Source: a virus. From it: DNA of 22,605 bases. The stretch's first letter is position 1. Every line of letters starts with the position of its first letter. Below the pieces are notes generated by a model. It did not search any database. It was not told the DNA's origin and saw only the letters and a program-made list of their open reading frames with translations. The stretch spans positions 1-22,605 of the IMG/VR virus record IMGVR_UViG_3300048105_000071; one strand, written 5' to 3'. Shown in pieces: positions 2,926-18,610 of this stretch. The translations under genes were made by a program, and so were the position numbers.

Positions 2926-2948
2926 ACCACATTTAGGTGGTATAAATA
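2926..2948 (+). promoter_or_regulatory. Late promoter with adjoining inverted repeat, before gp20
   Basis: TATAAATA at 2941-2948 is an exact T4 late -10 element. It is immediately preceded by an inverted repeat ACCAC (2926-2930) / GTGGT (2937-2941) with a 6-nt loop whose right arm runs into the first T of the octamer. The portal ATG lies at 2954, where a T4 late promoter would be expected to initiate, so the transcript could be leaderless or carry almost no leader. No Shine-Dalgarno sequence is visible. Confidence 0.65.
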
Positions 2949-2953
2949 TTAGT

Positions 2954-4489
2954 ATGGAATTATTTGGGTACGAAATTACTCGTAAAAAAGACGAGTTAAG
3001 GAATACGGAGGCACCGAATGCTAAGTCATTCGTGCCACCAGTTGATGATGATGGAACACCCGTCATTGCTCAACAGGCAGGTTATGTCGCAGGAGGTGCT
3101 TATGGTGCCTATGTCGACATGGAAGGTGGTATCAAAAATGAGGCAGAACTCATTCGTAGATATCGTGAAACTTCTTTGGTGCCAGAGTGTGACTCTGCAA
3201 TCGAAGACATAGTTAATGAGTGTATCACGTCTGATGTTTCAGATAAGATTGTGACACTCGACTTGAGAGACGTTAAACTCTCTGATAGTATCAAAGGAAA
3301 GATACAAGACGAGTTTAATCACATCTTAGGGATGATGAAGTTCAATCAGAACTCTCATGAAATATTCAGAAAGTGGTACGTTGATGGAAGAGTATATTTC
3401 CATAAAGTCGTTGACTCTAAAAGACCTAAATTAGGTATAGTAGACTTAAGGAACGTAGACCCATTAAAAATTAAAAAAGTTAGACATGTTGAAAAGGATA
3501 AAGACCCTAAGACAGGTATAGAACGAATCAAAAAGATGGAAGAGTTCTACATGTTTAATGACAGAGGATTCGATAAGTCTTCTGCAACAGAAGGAACAAC
3601 AGTTAAAATTGCACCCGAGGCTGTATCATATACTACTTCAGGTCTACTTGATTACACAAAGAATGTTGTAATCGGGTATTTGCATAAGGCATTGAAGACT
3701 GCAAATCAGTTATCAATGATGGAAGATGCACTTGTTATATACCGTATATCAAGGGCTCCTGAAAGAAGAATTTTTTATATTGATGTAGGTAACTTACCTA
3801 AGGCAAAGGCAGAACAGTACCTTGCAGAGACAATGAACAAGTATAAGAATAAACTTGTTTACAATGCAGATACTGGTGAAATCAAAGATGATAGAAAACA
3901 TATGAGTATGTTAGAAGATTTTTGGTTACCTAGAAGAGAGGGTGGTAGAGGAACAGAGATTAGTACATTGCCTGGTGGACAAAACCTTGCAGACATAGAT
4001 GATATAGAATACTTCAAGAAGAAGTTATATCAATCTCTTAATGTACCTGCTTCTAGAATGGAGGCCGACAATGGATTTAACATGGGTCGTGCTTCAGAGA
4101 TTAATAGAGATGAACTTAAGTTTAATAAGTTCACTAACAGACTTCAGAAGAAGTTTGCAAGGGTTTTTATTGATATCCTTAGAACACAATTAGTTCTAAA
4201 AGAGATAATCAATGCAGAAGAGTATGATAGTACAGTAAAAGAATTTGTTCAGTTTCAATTTGCAACCGACAACCACTTTACAGAGTTGAAAGATGCAGAG
4301 ATACTAAAGGAGAGAATAGACACTCTCGGACAAGTATCAGAGTATGTTGGACAGTATTACTCTAAAGATTGGGTTAGAAAATATGTTTTAATGCAATCAG
4401 ATGAGGATATAAAATTAATTGATAAACAAATCAACACCGAAAAAGATGAAGGTGGAGATGAAGATAATGATGACTTTGGAGGATTCTAA
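2954..4489 (+). CDS. 20: Portal protein (gp20-like)
   Basis: A 511-residue protein with the T4-like portal signature: N-terminal MELFGYEITRKKDE, RYRETSLVPECDSAIEDIVNECI, WYVDGRVYFHKVVD, the conserved DYTKNVVIGYLHKALKTANQLSMMEDALVIYRISRAPERRIFYIDVGNLPK core (seen in successive pieces), and ASRMEADNGFNMGRASEI. gp20 forms the dodecameric ring at the unique vertex that nucleates prohead assembly, docks the terminase and connects to the neck. The C-terminus is strongly acidic (about 20 residues rich in E/D). The start is fixed by the family-typical (M)xLFGxEIxRKKDE beginning even though no ribosome binding site precedes it. T4 gp20 is of similar length (524). Confidence 0.96.
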   Translation: MELFGYEITRKKDELRNTEAPNAKSFVPPVDDDGTPVIAQQAGYVAGGAYGAYVDMEGGIKNEAELIRRYRETSLVPECDSAIEDIVNECITSDVSDKIVTLDLRDVKLSDSIKGKIQDEFNHILGMMKFNQNSHEIFRKWYVDGRVYFHKVVDSKRPKLGIVDLRNVDPLKIKKVRHVEKDKDPKTGIERIKKMEEFYMFNDRGFDKSSATEGTTVKIAPEAVSYTTSGLLDYTKNVVIGYLHKALKTANQLSMMEDALVIYRISRAPERRIFYIDVGNLPKAKAEQYLAETMNKYKNKLVYNADTGEIKDDRKHMSMLEDFWLPRREGGRGTEISTLPGGQNLADIDDIEYFKKKLYQSLNVPASRMEADNGFNMGRASEINRDELKFNKFTNRLQKKFARVFIDILRTQLVLKEIINAEEYDSTVKEFVQFQFATDNHFTELKDAEILKERIDTLGQVSEYVGQYYSKDWVRKYVLMQSDEDIKLIDKQINTEKDEGGDEDNDDFGGF

Positions 4490-4491
4490 TA

Positions 4492-4671
4492 ATGAGTAGT
4501 GAAATTGCAAAACAAATAGTAGACCAAATAGAAAATGGTCAACTGCAAGATGCAAAGACAAGTATTGCACAAGGTATTAAACAAAAGGCTGCAGATGCAG
4601 TTGATATGAAAAGAGTTGAGATGCAAGTAGACTGGGTAGATGCACCAACAACTGAACCAACAGGTGAGTAA
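4492..4671 (+). CDS. 67: Small prohead core protein, gp67 position
   Basis: A 59-residue frame (MSSEIAKQIVDQIENGQLQD...PTTEPTGE) sits exactly where T4 gene 67 lies, between gp20 and gp68. It starts 2 bases after the portal stop (TAATAATG) and its TAA overlaps the next ATG by one base (TAATG), indicating translational coupling. The N-terminal 40 residues are amphipathic and helix-like. This fits a scaffold-core protein, which in T4 fills the prohead and is degraded by gp21. The assignment rests mainly on position and size; sequence identity with T4 gp67 (80 residues) cannot be judged by eye. Confidence 0.7.
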   Translation: MSSEIAKQIVDQIENGQLQDAKTSIAQGIKQKAADAVDMKRVEMQVDWVDAPTTEPTGE

Positions 4672-4970
4672 TGAAAAGTTTCTCTTCTGTTTTAACTGAA
4701 TTAAACGAATCTCGTAATGATATTCCGTTTAATGCATTTGAAGTTAAAAGAAACTTCGTTGAAATAGGAGAACAAAGAGTTAATGTAGTCTTAACTAGAA
4801 CTAATGAAGACTTCAATATCATCATAGATGGTAACAAATTAAGTGAATCTTTTACAAGTGTAAGAGAAGCAGAGAAAGAATTTAACAATATCCGTATTAT
4901 TATGAATGATTTGATTGAAAAGGATACAAAGATAGAGGAAATTATCAATGAAATTAATATCAGAGTTTAA
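4671..4970 (+). CDS. 68: Prohead core protein, gp68-like
   Basis: A 99-residue protein in the T4 gene 68 position, overlapping the upstream frame by 1 base and gp21 by 23 bases. It begins MKSFSSVLTELNES. This resembles the short capsid-targeting/core N-termini of T4-like phages and contains possible gp21 cleavage sites of the L-x-E type (LTE at 8-10, LNE at 11-13). The remainder is charged and probably mixed beta/alpha. The role inferred from the family is a minor component of the prohead core, processed during head maturation. T4 gp68 is longer (about 140), so this is a short version. Confidence 0.75.
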   Translation: MKSFSSVLTELNESRNDIPFNAFEVKRNFVEIGEQRVNVVLTRTNEDFNIIIDGNKLSESFTSVREAEKEFNNIRIIMNDLIEKDTKIEEIINEINIRV

Positions 4971-5601
4971 TGATTACGCAGTTCAACCTGTAATTATAGA
5001 ACAAAACGAAAAGGGTGAAAAAGAATACTTCATAGAAGGTATTTTTATGCAATCTGAAATTAAAAACAGAAACGGTAGAGTATATCCTAAAGAGGTTATG
5101 AGAAAAGAAGTTAACCGTTATTGTAAAGAATTTGTAGAGAAAAAACGTGCATTCGGTGAGTTAGGACATCCTGACGGCCCGACAATTAATTTGGATAAAG
5201 TATCACACATGATTACATCTTTAGAAGAAGATGGTAACAATTATGTGGGTAAAGCAAAGATTTTAAGTACACCAAACGGTCAAATTGTAAGAAATTTGAT
5301 AGATGACGGTGCTAAATTAGGAGTATCATCTCGTGGACTAGGTTCACTAGAACAAAAAGGTGGTGCTCAATATGTGAAGGACGATTTTCAACTTGCAACT
5401 GCAGGTGATATCGTTGCTGACCCCTCTGCTCCCGAGGCCTTCGTTGAAGGTATCATGGAAGGAGTAGAATGGGTAATGGAGAATGGTATATTAAAGGCAG
5501 TAGAAATGGAAAGGATGCAAAGACAACTAAAGTCTGCTTCCCTAAATAACTTAGAAGAAACGAAGTTAAACCTTTGGAAAAAGTTCGTTGAGAACCTATA
5601 A
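4948..5601 (+). CDS. 21: Prohead core maturation protease (gp21-like)
   Basis: A 217-residue serine protease of the T4 gp21 (U9/S77-type prohead protease) family. The signature is visible in order: GIFMQSEIKNRNGRVYP at about 31-47, AFGELGHPDGP with catalytic His74, LGVSSRGLGSL with the nucleophilic Ser (127 or 128), and GDIVADPSAPEAFV with the likely third acidic residue. gp21 is packaged in the prohead core, becomes active after assembly and cuts gp22, gp23 and core proteins after (L/I)-x-E. The start overlaps gp68 by 23 bases. The C-terminal 40 residues (MERMQRQLKSASLNNLEETKLNLWKKF) are helical and probably the pro-region that keeps it in the core. Confidence 0.93.
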   Translation: MKLISEFNDYAVQPVIIEQNEKGEKEYFIEGIFMQSEIKNRNGRVYPKEVMRKEVNRYCKEFVEKKRAFGELGHPDGPTINLDKVSHMITSLEEDGNNYVGKAKILSTPNGQIVRNLIDDGAKLGVSSRGLGSLEQKGGAQYVKDDFQLATAGDIVADPSAPEAFVEGIMEGVEWVMENGILKAVEMERMQRQLKSASLNNLEETKLNLWKKFVENL

Positions 5602-7008: not shown

Positions 7009-8304
7009 ATGTTTTTATCAGAAAACTTACAAGAAAAGTGGAGTCCGATTCTAGAACATTCCGATTTGCCAAAAATCGAGGATAACTACAAGAAGGCTGT
7101 TACTGCTGTAATATTAGAAAACCAAGAAATTGCTCTTAAAGAAGATAGAGCAACTCTAGGTGAAGCAGCACCTTTAAATGCTACTGGAAGTGCGATATCT
7201 AACTGGGACCCGATTTTAATCAGTCTCGTTAGACGTGCTATGCCAAATCTCGTTGCTTACGACATTTGTGGTGTTCAACCAATGACTGGCCCTACAGGTC
7301 TTATCTTTGCTATGAAGGCAAGATATCATGATGACGTAAACGCTGTTAGGACAGCAGAATCAGAGGCGCTTCACAACGAAGCAAGAACTGGTTATTCTGC
7401 TAACCCACAAACAGAATCTACGACTGTAGGTACAGACCACAGTGGAGACCCGTTTAACGGTTCTTACGCTTCTCAAACAGAAACAGGTATGTCAACAGCT
7501 GAAGCGGAAGCTTTAGGTGATGCATCAGACAATCATTTCGCAGAAATGAGTTTCTCAATTGAAAAAGCTACTGTGACAGCAGTTTCCAGAGCATTAAAAG
7601 CAGAATACACATTAGAACTTGCACAAGACCTTAAAGCAATTCATGGTCTTGACGCTGAGTCAGAACTTGCAAACATTCTTTCAAGTGAAATACTTGCAGA
7701 GATAAACAGAGAAGTAATCAGAGGAGTTAACAACCAGGCTAAAACTGGTGCGGCTGCTACTGCTGCTGCTGGTACATTCAACTTAGATGTTGATGCTAAC
7801 GGTAGATGGTCTGTTGAGAAGTTCAAAGGATTATTGTTCCAAATCGAAAGAGAAGCTAACGTAATCGCAAAAGAAACAAGAAGAGGAAAAGGTAACTTTA
7901 TCTTATGTTCTTCTGATGTTGCTTCTGCATTATCAATGGCTGGTGTATTAGATTATACACCTGCTCTTAATACAGGACTAAATGTAGATGACACTGGTAA
8001 TACTTTTGCTGGTACATTAAACGGAAGAGTTAAAGTCTATATAGACCCATATGCTTCTTCAGACTACATGACTGTAGGTTACAGAGGTTCAAATCCTTAT
8101 GACGCTGGTTTATTCTATTGCCCATACGTTCCATTACAAATGGTTCGTGCAGTCGGTGAGAATACTTTCCAACCAAAAATCGGTTTCAAAACTAGATATG
8201 GTATGGTAAGTAATCCTTTTGTTGGTTCAACACCACCAAATGGTCTTGCTTCTGCAGGTACTAACCAGTACTTCAGAAAAATGGCAGTTTCTAACATTCT
8301 GTAA
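7009..8304 (+). CDS. 23: Major capsid protein (gp23-like)
   Basis: A 431-residue HK97-fold capsid protein. Typical T4-superfamily blocks are present: SNWDPILISLVRRAMPNLVAYDICGVQPM at about 65-92 (in pieces), GPTGLIFAMKARY, the helix with AELANILSSEILAEINREV, VIAKETRRGKGNFILCS and CPYVPLQMVRAVGENTFQPKIGFKTRYG near the C-terminus. An L-G-E|A site at residues 50-53 fits gp21 removal of an N-terminal pro-segment of about 52 residues. It is shorter than T4 gp23 (521), as in marine T4-like phages. AAAGGA is 8 bases before the ATG. A strong terminator follows directly. No gp24 (vertex) paralogue follows in this window. Confidence 0.96.
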   Translation: MFLSENLQEKWSPILEHSDLPKIEDNYKKAVTAVILENQEIALKEDRATLGEAAPLNATGSAISNWDPILISLVRRAMPNLVAYDICGVQPMTGPTGLIFAMKARYHDDVNAVRTAESEALHNEARTGYSANPQTESTTVGTDHSGDPFNGSYASQTETGMSTAEAEALGDASDNHFAEMSFSIEKATVTAVSRALKAEYTLELAQDLKAIHGLDAESELANILSSEILAEINREVIRGVNNQAKTGAAATAAAGTFNLDVDANGRWSVEKFKGLLFQIEREANVIAKETRRGKGNFILCSSDVASALSMAGVLDYTPALNTGLNVDDTGNTFAGTLNGRVKVYIDPYASSDYMTVGYRGSNPYDAGLFYCPYVPLQMVRAVGENTFQPKIGFKTRYGMVSNPFVGSTPPNGLASAGTNQYFRKMAVSNIL

Positions 8305-15752: not shown

Positions 15753-17464
15753 TAAACTTTAAAAAAGTTAGATGGAAGAACCTACTTTCGTCAGGAAATA
15801 AATTTACTGAAATACAATTGGATGCACACCAAACAACTCTTATACTTGGAGAAAATGGTGCAGGTAAGTCTACACTATTAGATGCATTGTGTTTTGGTTT
15901 ATATGGAAAGGGATTCCGTAATCTAAAAAAAGATTTACTTATCAATAGTATAAATGAAAAAGAACTTCTAGTAGAAGTAGAATTCAGTATAGGTAAAAGA
16001 GAATATAAAGTAATCCGTGGTGCAAAACCAAATAAGTTTGAGTTGTATGTAAATGATGTTATGTTAAATCAAGATGCAACAGTCAGAGACTATCAAGAAC
16101 ACTTAGAGAAGAACGTACTCAAAATGAGTTTTCGTTCCTTTACCCAAGTCGCAATATTGGGTTCTGCAAACTTTACTCCTTTCATGCAACTTCGTGCTGT
16201 AGAGAGACGGAAACTTGTAGAAGACTTACTAGACATTTCCATATTTTCAACTATGAGAGACTTACTTCGTAAGAAAGTGTCTGAACACAATATAGAAATA
16301 AAAGAAACCAACCATGAAGTTGAACTCATGGAAGAACGAGTCAGTGGACTCAATGACCAACTTAATGCACTTCGTGAGAATCGTGATAAAAAAATATTAC
16401 AATATGAGAATACTGTTGAAGAAACAGAAACTAATATCTCAAATCTACTGGAGAAAGTTGATGAAAAGACGAAAAATGTGGTGGAGAAAAAATCCACTAT
16501 CTCGGATAAAAACCCTCAAACGGATAGACTCAAACAGGCTCTTGACGTGGAGAAACGACTTAATGAATCTAAAACAAAAGCAGTCAAAGAAATTAAGTTC
16601 TATGAAGAAAATGATGACTGCCCAACATGTAAACAAGGATTAGACCATGAACATAAAAAGAAACATATTGAAGCCAAGACTAAAAAAGTTGAAGAAGTCA
16701 AGAACGCCATCACACAAATTGATGACCTTATCCTCGAAGTACGAGGTCGGATACAAGAAATCAACCTAGTACAAGATGAGATAGAGACTATTCAAAAATC
16801 TGTTGGAATTCTACAAACAGAAATACTATCCAATCAGAAGTTTGTCAATAAGATGCAAAAGGAGATAACACTACTAGAACAAGAAAAGAGTGGTAACTCT
16901 GATGTGCATGAAAGAATTGATGATACCGAAGAGAAGTTGGATATCCTTCATAAGAAAAAGGAGAACATGGTTGACAGAGGTCACTACTATGACATTGCAA
17001 CAACACTCCTAAGAGACCAAGGTGTAAAAGAAAAGATTATTAAACAGTACGTTCCAATTATGAACAAACTTATTAATAAGTATCTTGCACAACTTGAGTT
17101 CTATGTTGGGTTTGAGTTGAATGAGTCTTTTGAAGAAACCATCAAGTCAAGGTTTAGAGACGTATTTAAATACGATAACTTCTCTCAAGGTGAGAAGATG
17201 AGAATCGATTTGTCATTACTATTCACATGGAGAAGTGTTGCAAGAATGAAGAACAGTGTTAACACTAATCTATTAATATTAGATGAAGTGTTCGACTCTT
17301 CACTTGACACTAACGGAACAGACGACTTTCTAAAACTTTTAAATTCTCTTACAGAGAAGACCAATGCATTTATCATATCACATAAAGGTGATGCATTATA
17401 CGACAAGTTTAATGATGTAATACGATTTGAGAAACATAAAAACTTCTCACGGGTTGCAGAATAG
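15749..17464 (+). CDS. 46: Recombination ATPase subunit gp46 (SbcC/Rad50-like)
   Basis: A 571-residue SMC-like ATPase: Walker A GENGAGKST at 34-42, a long coiled coil (about 170-410) broken by a zinc hook CPTC at 291-294, ABC signature FSQGEKMR at 478-485 and Walker B LLILDEVFDSSLD at 508-520. The length is about that of T4 gp46 (560). It pairs with gp47 in end resection. The ATG overlaps the gp47 stop. A late-type promoter and the next gene follow within 13 bases of its stop. Confidence 0.96.
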   Translation: MINFKKVRWKNLLSSGNKFTEIQLDAHQTTLILGENGAGKSTLLDALCFGLYGKGFRNLKKDLLINSINEKELLVEVEFSIGKREYKVIRGAKPNKFELYVNDVMLNQDATVRDYQEHLEKNVLKMSFRSFTQVAILGSANFTPFMQLRAVERRKLVEDLLDISIFSTMRDLLRKKVSEHNIEIKETNHEVELMEERVSGLNDQLNALRENRDKKILQYENTVEETETNISNLLEKVDEKTKNVVEKKSTISDKNPQTDRLKQALDVEKRLNESKTKAVKEIKFYEENDDCPTCKQGLDHEHKKKHIEAKTKKVEEVKNAITQIDDLILEVRGRIQEINLVQDEIETIQKSVGILQTEILSNQKFVNKMQKEITLLEQEKSGNSDVHERIDDTEEKLDILHKKKENMVDRGHYYDIATTLLRDQGVKEKIIKQYVPIMNKLINKYLAQLEFYVGFELNESFEETIKSRFRDVFKYDNFSQGEKMRIDLSLLFTWRSVARMKNSVNTNLLILDEVFDSSLDTNGTDDFLKLLNSLTEKTNAFIISHKGDALYDKFNDVIRFEKHKNFSRVAE

Positions 17465-17471
17465 ATAAATA
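17464..17471 (+). promoter_or_regulatory. Late-type promoter abutting the 17477 gene
   Basis: GATAAATA (7 of 8 matches to TATAAATA), then five bases and ATG at 17477. The block from the octamer to the ATG differs from the gp20 start (2941-2956) at only two positions: octamer first base G instead of T, and first spacer base G instead of T. This supports a real promoter with a leaderless or near-leaderless start. Confidence 0.55.
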
Positions 17472-17476
17472 GTAGT

Positions 17477-18610
17477 ATGAAATCTTTTAACGAGTATCTA
17501 ACACCTAAACTTAGTAAGTTAGACTTACCCAGTTACACTATTGGTATGCCTCTCGATTTACTTGAGGGTATGGGTGAAACTACACAAAACGCATCCGTAA
17601 CAGAATTATTCCCATGCTTAGCATTTAACAAAAAGTTTAGACCTAGTAGTGTGGAAGATTTTAAAAAGTTTCTTTATAAGTTGAATATAAAATCTGCAAA
17701 AAGTTCTTATGCAGCTTCAGATGCAGATGCAGCCGCAGAGGTTATAGAAAGACTTAGTACTATGGAAGAAAGATTCGTTAAGATGAAAATGGAAAATGCA
17801 ATCGGTATTACAAATTTTCTATATGATTTAAACACATCCAAACCCATAAAAAAAGTTGTATGGGGATATCGTGCAAAACCCAGTGGAGTTCCTAAAAGTC
17901 ATGCAGGAGATATTTTTGTATTCTTTAAAAATAAAGAGATACTAGGTATCTCATTAAAGGCAGGAACAACAAAATCTACAGAACCATTATTAAACTCTTA
18001 TGTTAAGACTCAACTTAAAAAGATGGATAAAGAGTCAGCACTTAAACCTATGGAAGATGAACTTTGGGATGCAGTGTATTCTAAAATTCCAAACATAGAA
18101 TCGGTTGCATCTAAAAGCACTTATGCAAGTGGAGATAGAACGGTGACTGCAGGTGTCAGACAACTATACTTAGATTATCATTTACAAGATGAAACAGAGT
18201 CTAACAATTTGTATGCTGCAATGGTAAGAATACAAAGAACTCATGTGTGTAAAGCACTAAATGAATTATCACTAGAAGATTTTAAAAGTTGGGTTTACGA
18301 AAACTTTAATCTACAAAAACCTGCAAAGGTTCCACTAATATTAGTAAAGGCAGTAGGTAAAGTAGCAGAACAAAAAGGTGACGACCTTGCATCATTACTA
18401 CCATTAGTTACAAGTTTTAATGCATACCTAAATAAATCGTCAGTGCAAGAATGGTTTATAGATATAGATACGCCTGATGACCAAAAGAAACTAAAGATGA
18501 CCATTAGAAGTGATGCAGGAGTTAGAGAAGGTAAGAAACTCGCAACACTAGGAAGATTGGCAAAATTTAGTATGTTAAAATTACAATATAGTGGAGTAGT
18601 AGATAGATAA
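17477..18610 (+). CDS. Possible capsid-targeted internal protein with PD-(D/E)XK-like nuclease motif
   Basis: A 377-residue protein, family not firmly recognised. The first ten residues, MKSFNEYLTP, match position by position (identity or conservative change) the N-terminal capsid-targeting sequence of T4 internal proteins as I recall it (MKTYQEFIAE). LLE|G at 28-31 fits a gp21 cleavage site, which would release a mature protein from residue 31. Residues 143-162 read AGDIFVFF..KEILGISLKAG, the spacing of a PD-(D/E)XK site (D145...S159-L-K161) with Ser replacing the usual acidic residue, as in some restriction enzymes. The late-type promoter directly upstream suits a virion protein, although the neighbours are early/middle genes. 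Alternatives: an unrelated replication-associated protein or a tail/head minor protein. Its stop overlaps the deformylase ATG. Confidence 0.6.
   Translation: MKSFNEYLTPKLSKLDLPSYTIGMPLDLLEGMGETTQNASVTELFPCLAFNKKFRPSSVEDFKKFLYKLNIKSAKSSYAASDADAAAEVIERLSTMEERFVKMKMENAIGITNFLYDLNTSKPIKKVVWGYRAKPSGVPKSHAGDIFVFFKNKEILGISLKAGTTKSTEPLLNSYVKTQLKKMDKESALKPMEDELWDAVYSKIPNIESVASKSTYASGDRTVTAGVRQLYLDYHLQDETESNNLYAAMVRIQRTHVCKALNELSLEDFKSWVYENFNLQKPAKVPLILVKAVGKVAEQKGDDLASLLPLVTSFNAYLNKSSVQEWFIDIDTPDDQKKLKMTIRSDAGVREGKKLATLGRLAKFSMLKLQYSGVVDR

Follow-up and report, generated by a model that had tools for sequence, protein, structure and literature searches.

Results

A gene of unknown function between gp46 and peptide deformylase

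The window, which is the whole stretch of 22,605 nucleotides (22.6 kb) that was analysed, is an IMG/VR fragment from a T4-like phage. It carries gp18, gp19, gp20, an ORF at the gp68 position, gp21, gp22, gp23, UvsW, gp55, gp47, gp46, a candidate nuclease ORF, a peptide deformylase gene and a 2OG oxygenase gene. The candidate nuclease ORF is flanked by gp46 and the deformylase gene:

17477..18610, plus strand: candidate nuclease CDS, 377 aa, PHROG 2496 family (phrog_2496, E 7e-57)

PHROG 2496, whose function is unknown, corresponds to the family core, and its profile is longer by about 90 positions at the N-terminus. A profile scan recovered 547 IMG/VR relatives of the 377-aa protein together with two contigs filed as bacterial MAGs, at least one of the two having a T4-type capsid protein gene as well. 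With tblastn, 81 Synechococcus/marine phage records were matched, in which the homology starts only at residue 28–31. Searches of Pfam, NCBIfam and PADLOC with the 377-aa protein gave no match, and a sequence search of the PDB gave no meaningful match. The family gene of Synechococcus phage metaG-MbCM1 (L016 2995-4091) is annotated as two ORFs, as if it were broken or misassembled.

The N-terminus resembles a T4 head-targeting peptide with a predicted protease site

The following features bear on the N-terminus and its predicted processing:

17477..17506, plus strand: residues 1–10 (MKSFNEYLTP), capsid-targeting-like start, aromatic at residues 4 and 7
17558..17566, plus strand: residues 28–30 (LLE), predicted gp21 protease site with the cut after E30
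17567..18607, plus strand: predicted mature chain, residues 31–377; homology to cyanophage proteins sets in at residues 28–31
4671..4970, plus strand: gp68-position ORF starting MKSFSSVLTELNE, a tag-like N-terminus that scores highest among the unlabelled ORFs
4948..5601, plus strand: gp21-type prohead protease (phrog_207, E 4e-80), which would cut the LxE site
7009..8304, plus strand: gp23 major capsid protein with ATLGE/AAPLN, a predicted LxE/A cleavage site in the same phage

In T4 IPIII, residues 4 and 7 govern targeting and residues 8 and 10 govern processing, and the T4 gp21 protease cleaves after L/I-X-E (PMC9026906). A sequence-only reading of the window had aligned MKSFNEYLTP with a T4 internal-protein targeting sequence, MKTYQEFIAE, which is 100% identical to the ipIII N-terminus in AF158101, and had described LLE/G at residues 28–31, which is present. 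It had also pointed to an MKSF start of gp68; the ORF does begin in this way and owes its name to position only. The corresponding residues of the window protein are F4, Y7, L8 and P10; because of the proline, the cut is expected at residue 30 and not at residue 10. When scored with a PSSM derived from the neighbouring cassette proteins, MKSFNEYLTP outscores 97% of the core-gene N-termini.

The N-termini of 48 non-redundant members vary extremely, both in length and in sequence. An LxE with its E no more than 6 residues from the core is found in 46 of the 48, compared with 9.4 expected and a maximum of 20 in 2000 shuffles. CTS-like starts such as MKTFRTFLAE, MLRFKTYLME and MKKFRSFLTE occur among the members, and 13 of 45 members score beyond the 95th percentile of core-gene N-termini, which supports a CTS in part of the family. 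About half of the members carry a second, non-CTS-like type of N-terminus (e.g. MSLQQYVRQVKPRNESYIPPVDKIQFLLSE), which has only the LxE in common with the first. The members of L089, L091 and L095 start 7 residues ahead of the core, untagged and with no propeptide, and the cyanophage members have a domain of ~90 aa in place of the propeptide, with no obvious LxE. The conservation of residues 1–30, on which the sequence-only reading had staked part of its case, extends to the LxE before the core and, in many members, to a CTS-like start, but not to the sequence itself. A shared head-targeting tag in marine phages is apparently undescribed in the open-access papers searched, where the one paper found was a review on the T4 head.

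A late-type octamer lies 5 nt upstream of the start codon

Two promoter-like elements were compared in the window:

17464..17471, plus strand: late-type octamer GATAAATA, with 5 nt between its end and the ATG of the candidate nuclease ORF, in the same 15-mer context as at the gp20 start; predicted leaderless late promoter
2941..2956, plus strand: TATAAATATTAGTATG, the element used for comparison, where the portal gene gp20 starts

gp20 is preceded by TATAAATA with the same 5-nt spacing as at the candidate nuclease ORF. There are exactly two copies of ATAAATA-N-TAGTATG in the window, at the candidate nuclease ORF and at the gp20 start, with 0.63 occurrences expected when up to 2 mismatches are allowed, and no Shine-Dalgarno sequence is found ahead of either gene (17464-17479 and 2941-2956). 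In the related contigs (loci L104-L140), most octamers of the form (T/G/C/A)ATAAATA that are close before an ATG precede it by exactly 5 nt. The T4 late-promoter geometry, applied to an octamer at this distance, would put +1 on the A of the ATG. An initial view that the window holds no usable late promoter was dropped given the parallel with gp20.

The late-type octamer of the sequence-only reading stands with its gp20-matched context and its spacing; on the other side, GATAAATA differs from TATAAATA by one mismatch, and such one-mismatch octamers are not enriched in the window (51 seen vs 57.7 expected from shuffles). Taken together, GATAAATA is probably a real late promoter of leaderless type, and the arrangement suggests that these T4-like phages have late mRNAs without leaders. 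In 25 of 48 family members, exact TATAAATA occurs in the 120 nt upstream, mostly 26–42 nt ahead of the ATG, as against 7 of 218 other ORFs of the same loci (Fisher p 6e-16); this match to the consensus points to late transcription of the candidate nuclease family.

Cassette partners with similar N-termini occur in virions

Most of the 53 loci examined have the gene order gp41, the family gene, a DUF6267 gene (KWDGAPA), a small ORF and an NMNAT-like gene, and the DUF6267 and NMNAT-like genes frequently share the start type MxxF..xL.E. This conserved cassette, which the sequence-only reading had overlooked, was seen in L034, L062, L072, L076, L089, L096 and others; KWDGAPA resembles ligase motif I. 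MKxFxxFLxE starts were also observed in P-loop kinase and HAD proteins, and these and the cassette proteins are possible head cargo as a set. In the window-lineage fragments no DUF6267 or NMNAT gene was found, and the candidate nuclease gene lies between gp46 and deformylase instead.

NMNAT/cytidylyltransferase proteins have been detected by mass spectrometry in cyanomyovirus virions (PMC3037559, PMC9602691, PMC10665884, PMC9146016), and the T4-GC190 cytidylyltransferase was detected in S-SM1 virions. NMNAT-like proteins starting MKSFLQFLKEAAE, MKNFSSFLTEAD and MRFRQFIIEA are among those found by mass spectrometry in the virions of S-SCSM1, S-CREM2 and S-SZBM1. The slot before the NMNAT gene is occupied in S-SCSM1 by S-SCSM1_90 (PHROG 1462), which is listed as a virion protein (PMC9602691), shares its N-terminal domain with the cyanophage members of the PHROG 2496 family (hhalign E 2.3e-5) and has a D..SLK motif of its own (SPADIYV...GVSLKK). 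Comparison of the PHROG 1462 profile with the larger family alignment gave nothing usable in the core; only the shared N-terminal domain was significant, and the model of PHROG 1462 (pLDDT 77) has no PDB match at E ≤ 1e-3. S-SZBM1_142, a D..SxK protein in the same slot, was not seen among the virion proteins in its table.

Strict CTS-like starts belong to virion proteins in 6 of 9 cases vs 1.7 expected (p 0.002; three proteomes, with the pattern picked post hoc). A general rule that an MKxF start marks a virion protein was set aside, since 6 of 9 across three proteomes is suggestive only. The S-CREM2 virion proteins SAM hydrolase, kinase and ORF136 have CTS-like starts: ORF6 (SAM hydrolase) begins MKDFDSFLEE and ORF14 (APH-like kinase) MKRFDAFLTEE (L149). 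The authors of the S-CREM2 study noted that such proteins might also be contaminants of the CsCl fraction. Two other listed virion proteins, S-CREM2 ORF160 (L142 28343-29236) and S-SCSM1_97 (L143 43122-43307), contain GFTGxxAxEGPxAGYDPLM, which resembles the N-arm of the major capsid protein right after its cleavage site.

We consider it likely that the 377-aa protein is packaged into the head. The strongest competing explanation, to which we give a low but appreciable probability, is a nuclease that stays unpackaged and serves late DNA processing inside the infected cell (debranching, recombination or breakdown of host DNA) beside gp41 or gp46/47. It would account for the position of the gene next to genes of replication and recombination (gp41 in most loci, gp46/47 in the lineage of the window), for the members that lack any tag and for S-SZBM1_142 not being seen in the virion table, but it leaves aside the late promoter directly upstream, the LxE of 46 of the 48 members and the occurrence in virions of cassette partners with like N-termini.

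A predicted restriction-enzyme-like fold with an invariant SxK motif

AlphaFold2 was run on the family alignment, and the model was compared with the PDB by Foldseek at E ≤ 1e-3. The model of the 377-aa protein has a mean pLDDT of 87.9, with residues 21–35 disordered. Its sole PDB match at this threshold is the restriction endonuclease HinP1I (E 6.8e-4, probability 1.00), with low TM-scores of 0.30/0.42. The invariant residues in the 48 aligned members are E43, W129-G130, H142, G144-D145-I146-F147, G157, S159-L160-K161-A162-G163 and E169-P170, and D145 and K161 are invariant in the cyanophage members too. Four of these sites may bear on catalysis:

17603..17605, plus strand: E43 of TELFP, invariant, in the first long helix
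17909..17911, plus strand: D145 of AGDIF, invariant, candidate catalytic acid
17951..17959, plus strand: S159-L160-K161, invariant, SxK replacing (D/E)xK
17981..17983, plus strand: E169 of EPLLN, invariant, candidate relocated acid

The strands were modelled at residues 124–129, 146–150 and 155–161; D145 starts one strand, and S159 and K161 end a neighbouring one, as expected for PD-(D/E)XK. The AGDIFVFF...GISLKAG segment holds D145 and S159-L-K161 as the sequence-only reading had described. Its expectations of a nuclease core and of conserved D145 and K161 agree with the HinP1I match of the predicted structure and with the alignment, respectively. The invariant E43 and E169 had escaped that reading. 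BFVD entry A0A3G5AE67 of Satyrvirus, a giant virus, also matches the model (E 2e-6), which hints that the fold extends beyond phages.

On the strength of this model and the invariant residues, the 377-aa protein probably has a PD-(D/E)XK nuclease fold. The canonical D...(D/E)xK signature is absent, as the acidic position is a serine in all members. Active PD-(D/E)XK variants with other residues at the acidic position exist, and in Cfr10I-type enzymes an S-x-K goes with an acid that has moved elsewhere. The acid missing from the SxK site may come from E169 or E43, and the protein may act like a PD-(D/E)XK enzyme without being a canonical member. Because D145 and K161 are invariant and the acid could be relocated to E169 or E43, the predicted nuclease is likely to be catalytic.

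The serine could instead reflect lost catalysis, with the dead nuclease fold serving as a packaged, DNA-binding core protein that aids DNA packing or ejection. We regard this explanation as unlikely, since a dead site has no need of an invariant D145, K161, E43 and E169, and the Cfr10I-type enzymes manage with the same S-x-K; what it does capture is the replacement of the acidic residue in every member and the behaviour of the T4 internal proteins, which sit amid packaged DNA with lysines contacting DNA phosphates (PMC3012670). That both the N-terminal likeness and the nuclease reading arose by chance, and that the protein has another fold and an uncharacterised role in the head or in metabolism, would fit the empty Pfam, NCBIfam, PADLOC and PDB sequence searches but is very improbable, as the Foldseek match, the set of invariant motifs and the statistics on LxE and promoter independently point the same way.

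Missing palindromes do not track the family

GATC, CCGG, CGCG or TCGA is nearly absent in several carriers of the family gene, and GATC in the window was seen 0 times vs 75 expected. In contigs G003, G006, G008 and G014, palindromic tetramers (GATC, CCGG, CGCG, TCGA, ACGT) are nearly absent, with the set varying by phage. The idea that carriers purge the site of their own nuclease was rejected, because the palindrome gaps do not track the family: HTVC008M and P-SSM2, which lack the family, have similar missing tetramers, and no missing tetramers were seen in the carriers G001, G002 and Bellamy. Host restriction is a simpler cause of the gaps.

Discussion

The explanation that we favour, with moderate confidence, is that the gene product is an internal head protein of the T4 type, that its cargo domain is a PD-(D/E)XK nuclease resembling restriction enzymes and that it is injected with the genome; that nuclease fold and head packaging hold together is probable to nearly the same degree. 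The head-packaged nuclease put forward by the sequence-only reading is supported as a hypothesis, and the tests that it had named for its own refutation came out favourably or nearly so. The candidate nuclease gene would be transcribed late, and the N-terminal targeting peptide would take the protein into the prohead core. A gp21-type protease would cut after E30, leaving residues 31–377 in the head with the DNA. On infection, the nuclease would exit with the genome to act in the new host, where the DNA that it cuts would most likely be that of the host or defence-related. The T4 head accepts a CTS-tagged staphylococcal nuclease, and the packaged DNA is digested only once calcium is added (PMC3012670); together with the restriction enzymes of chloroviruses (PMC7019647), this makes a head-carried nuclease feasible.

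The predicted protein resembles T4 IPI, IPII, IPIII and Alt in being probable late head cargo with an N-terminal peptide (residues 4 and 7) that gp21 would remove after L/I-X-E (PMC9026906). It differs from them in that the cargo is a predicted 347-aa nuclease, the cut site is at residue 30 and the cyanophage members have a different domain as N-terminus. With the HinP1I/MspI-type PD-(D/E)XK restriction endonucleases it shares the overall predicted fold, in which the acid starts a β strand and the xxK lies on the next, whereas the SxK in all members, the additional helices and the lack of a methylase beside the gene in the window set it apart. The likeness to the chlorovirus PBCV-1 lies in the idea of a site-specific nuclease inside the particle, presumed to break down host DNA upon entry (PMC7019647); however, this algal virus is unrelated and its enzymes are accompanied by methylases. 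Closer to the family, PHROG 1462 (S-SCSM1_90) shares the slot, the cyanophage N-terminal domain and the D..SLK motif, and the NMNAT virion proteins of cyanomyoviruses (T4-GC190) have the cassette and the N-terminus type in common but are a different enzyme.

More tentatively, the late cassette of marine T4-like phages (the SxK nuclease, the DUF6267 KWDG protein, the NMNAT-like protein and sometimes a P-loop kinase and a HAD phosphatase) might share a common head tag and form a co-injected takeover or counter-defence kit, in which the nuclease would be the bacterial-virus counterpart of the chlorovirus-packaged restriction enzymes. It is chiefly in coliphages that T4 internal proteins are known, and one of them, IPI, acts there as an inhibitor of a host restriction enzyme. 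If the favoured explanation is true, a sequence rule for head cargo would be an MxxF..F/YL.E start plus an LxE before the core, the recurrent NMNAT-like enzymes in cyanophage virions would be explained and a PHROG with hundreds of members would gain a function. A common, unnamed gene of marine T4-like phages would then encode an apparent head-loaded nuclease that probably enters the bacterium along with the viral DNA, and abundant ocean phages would use a T4-type address system to deliver enzymes, one of them DNA-cutting, at the first moments of infection.
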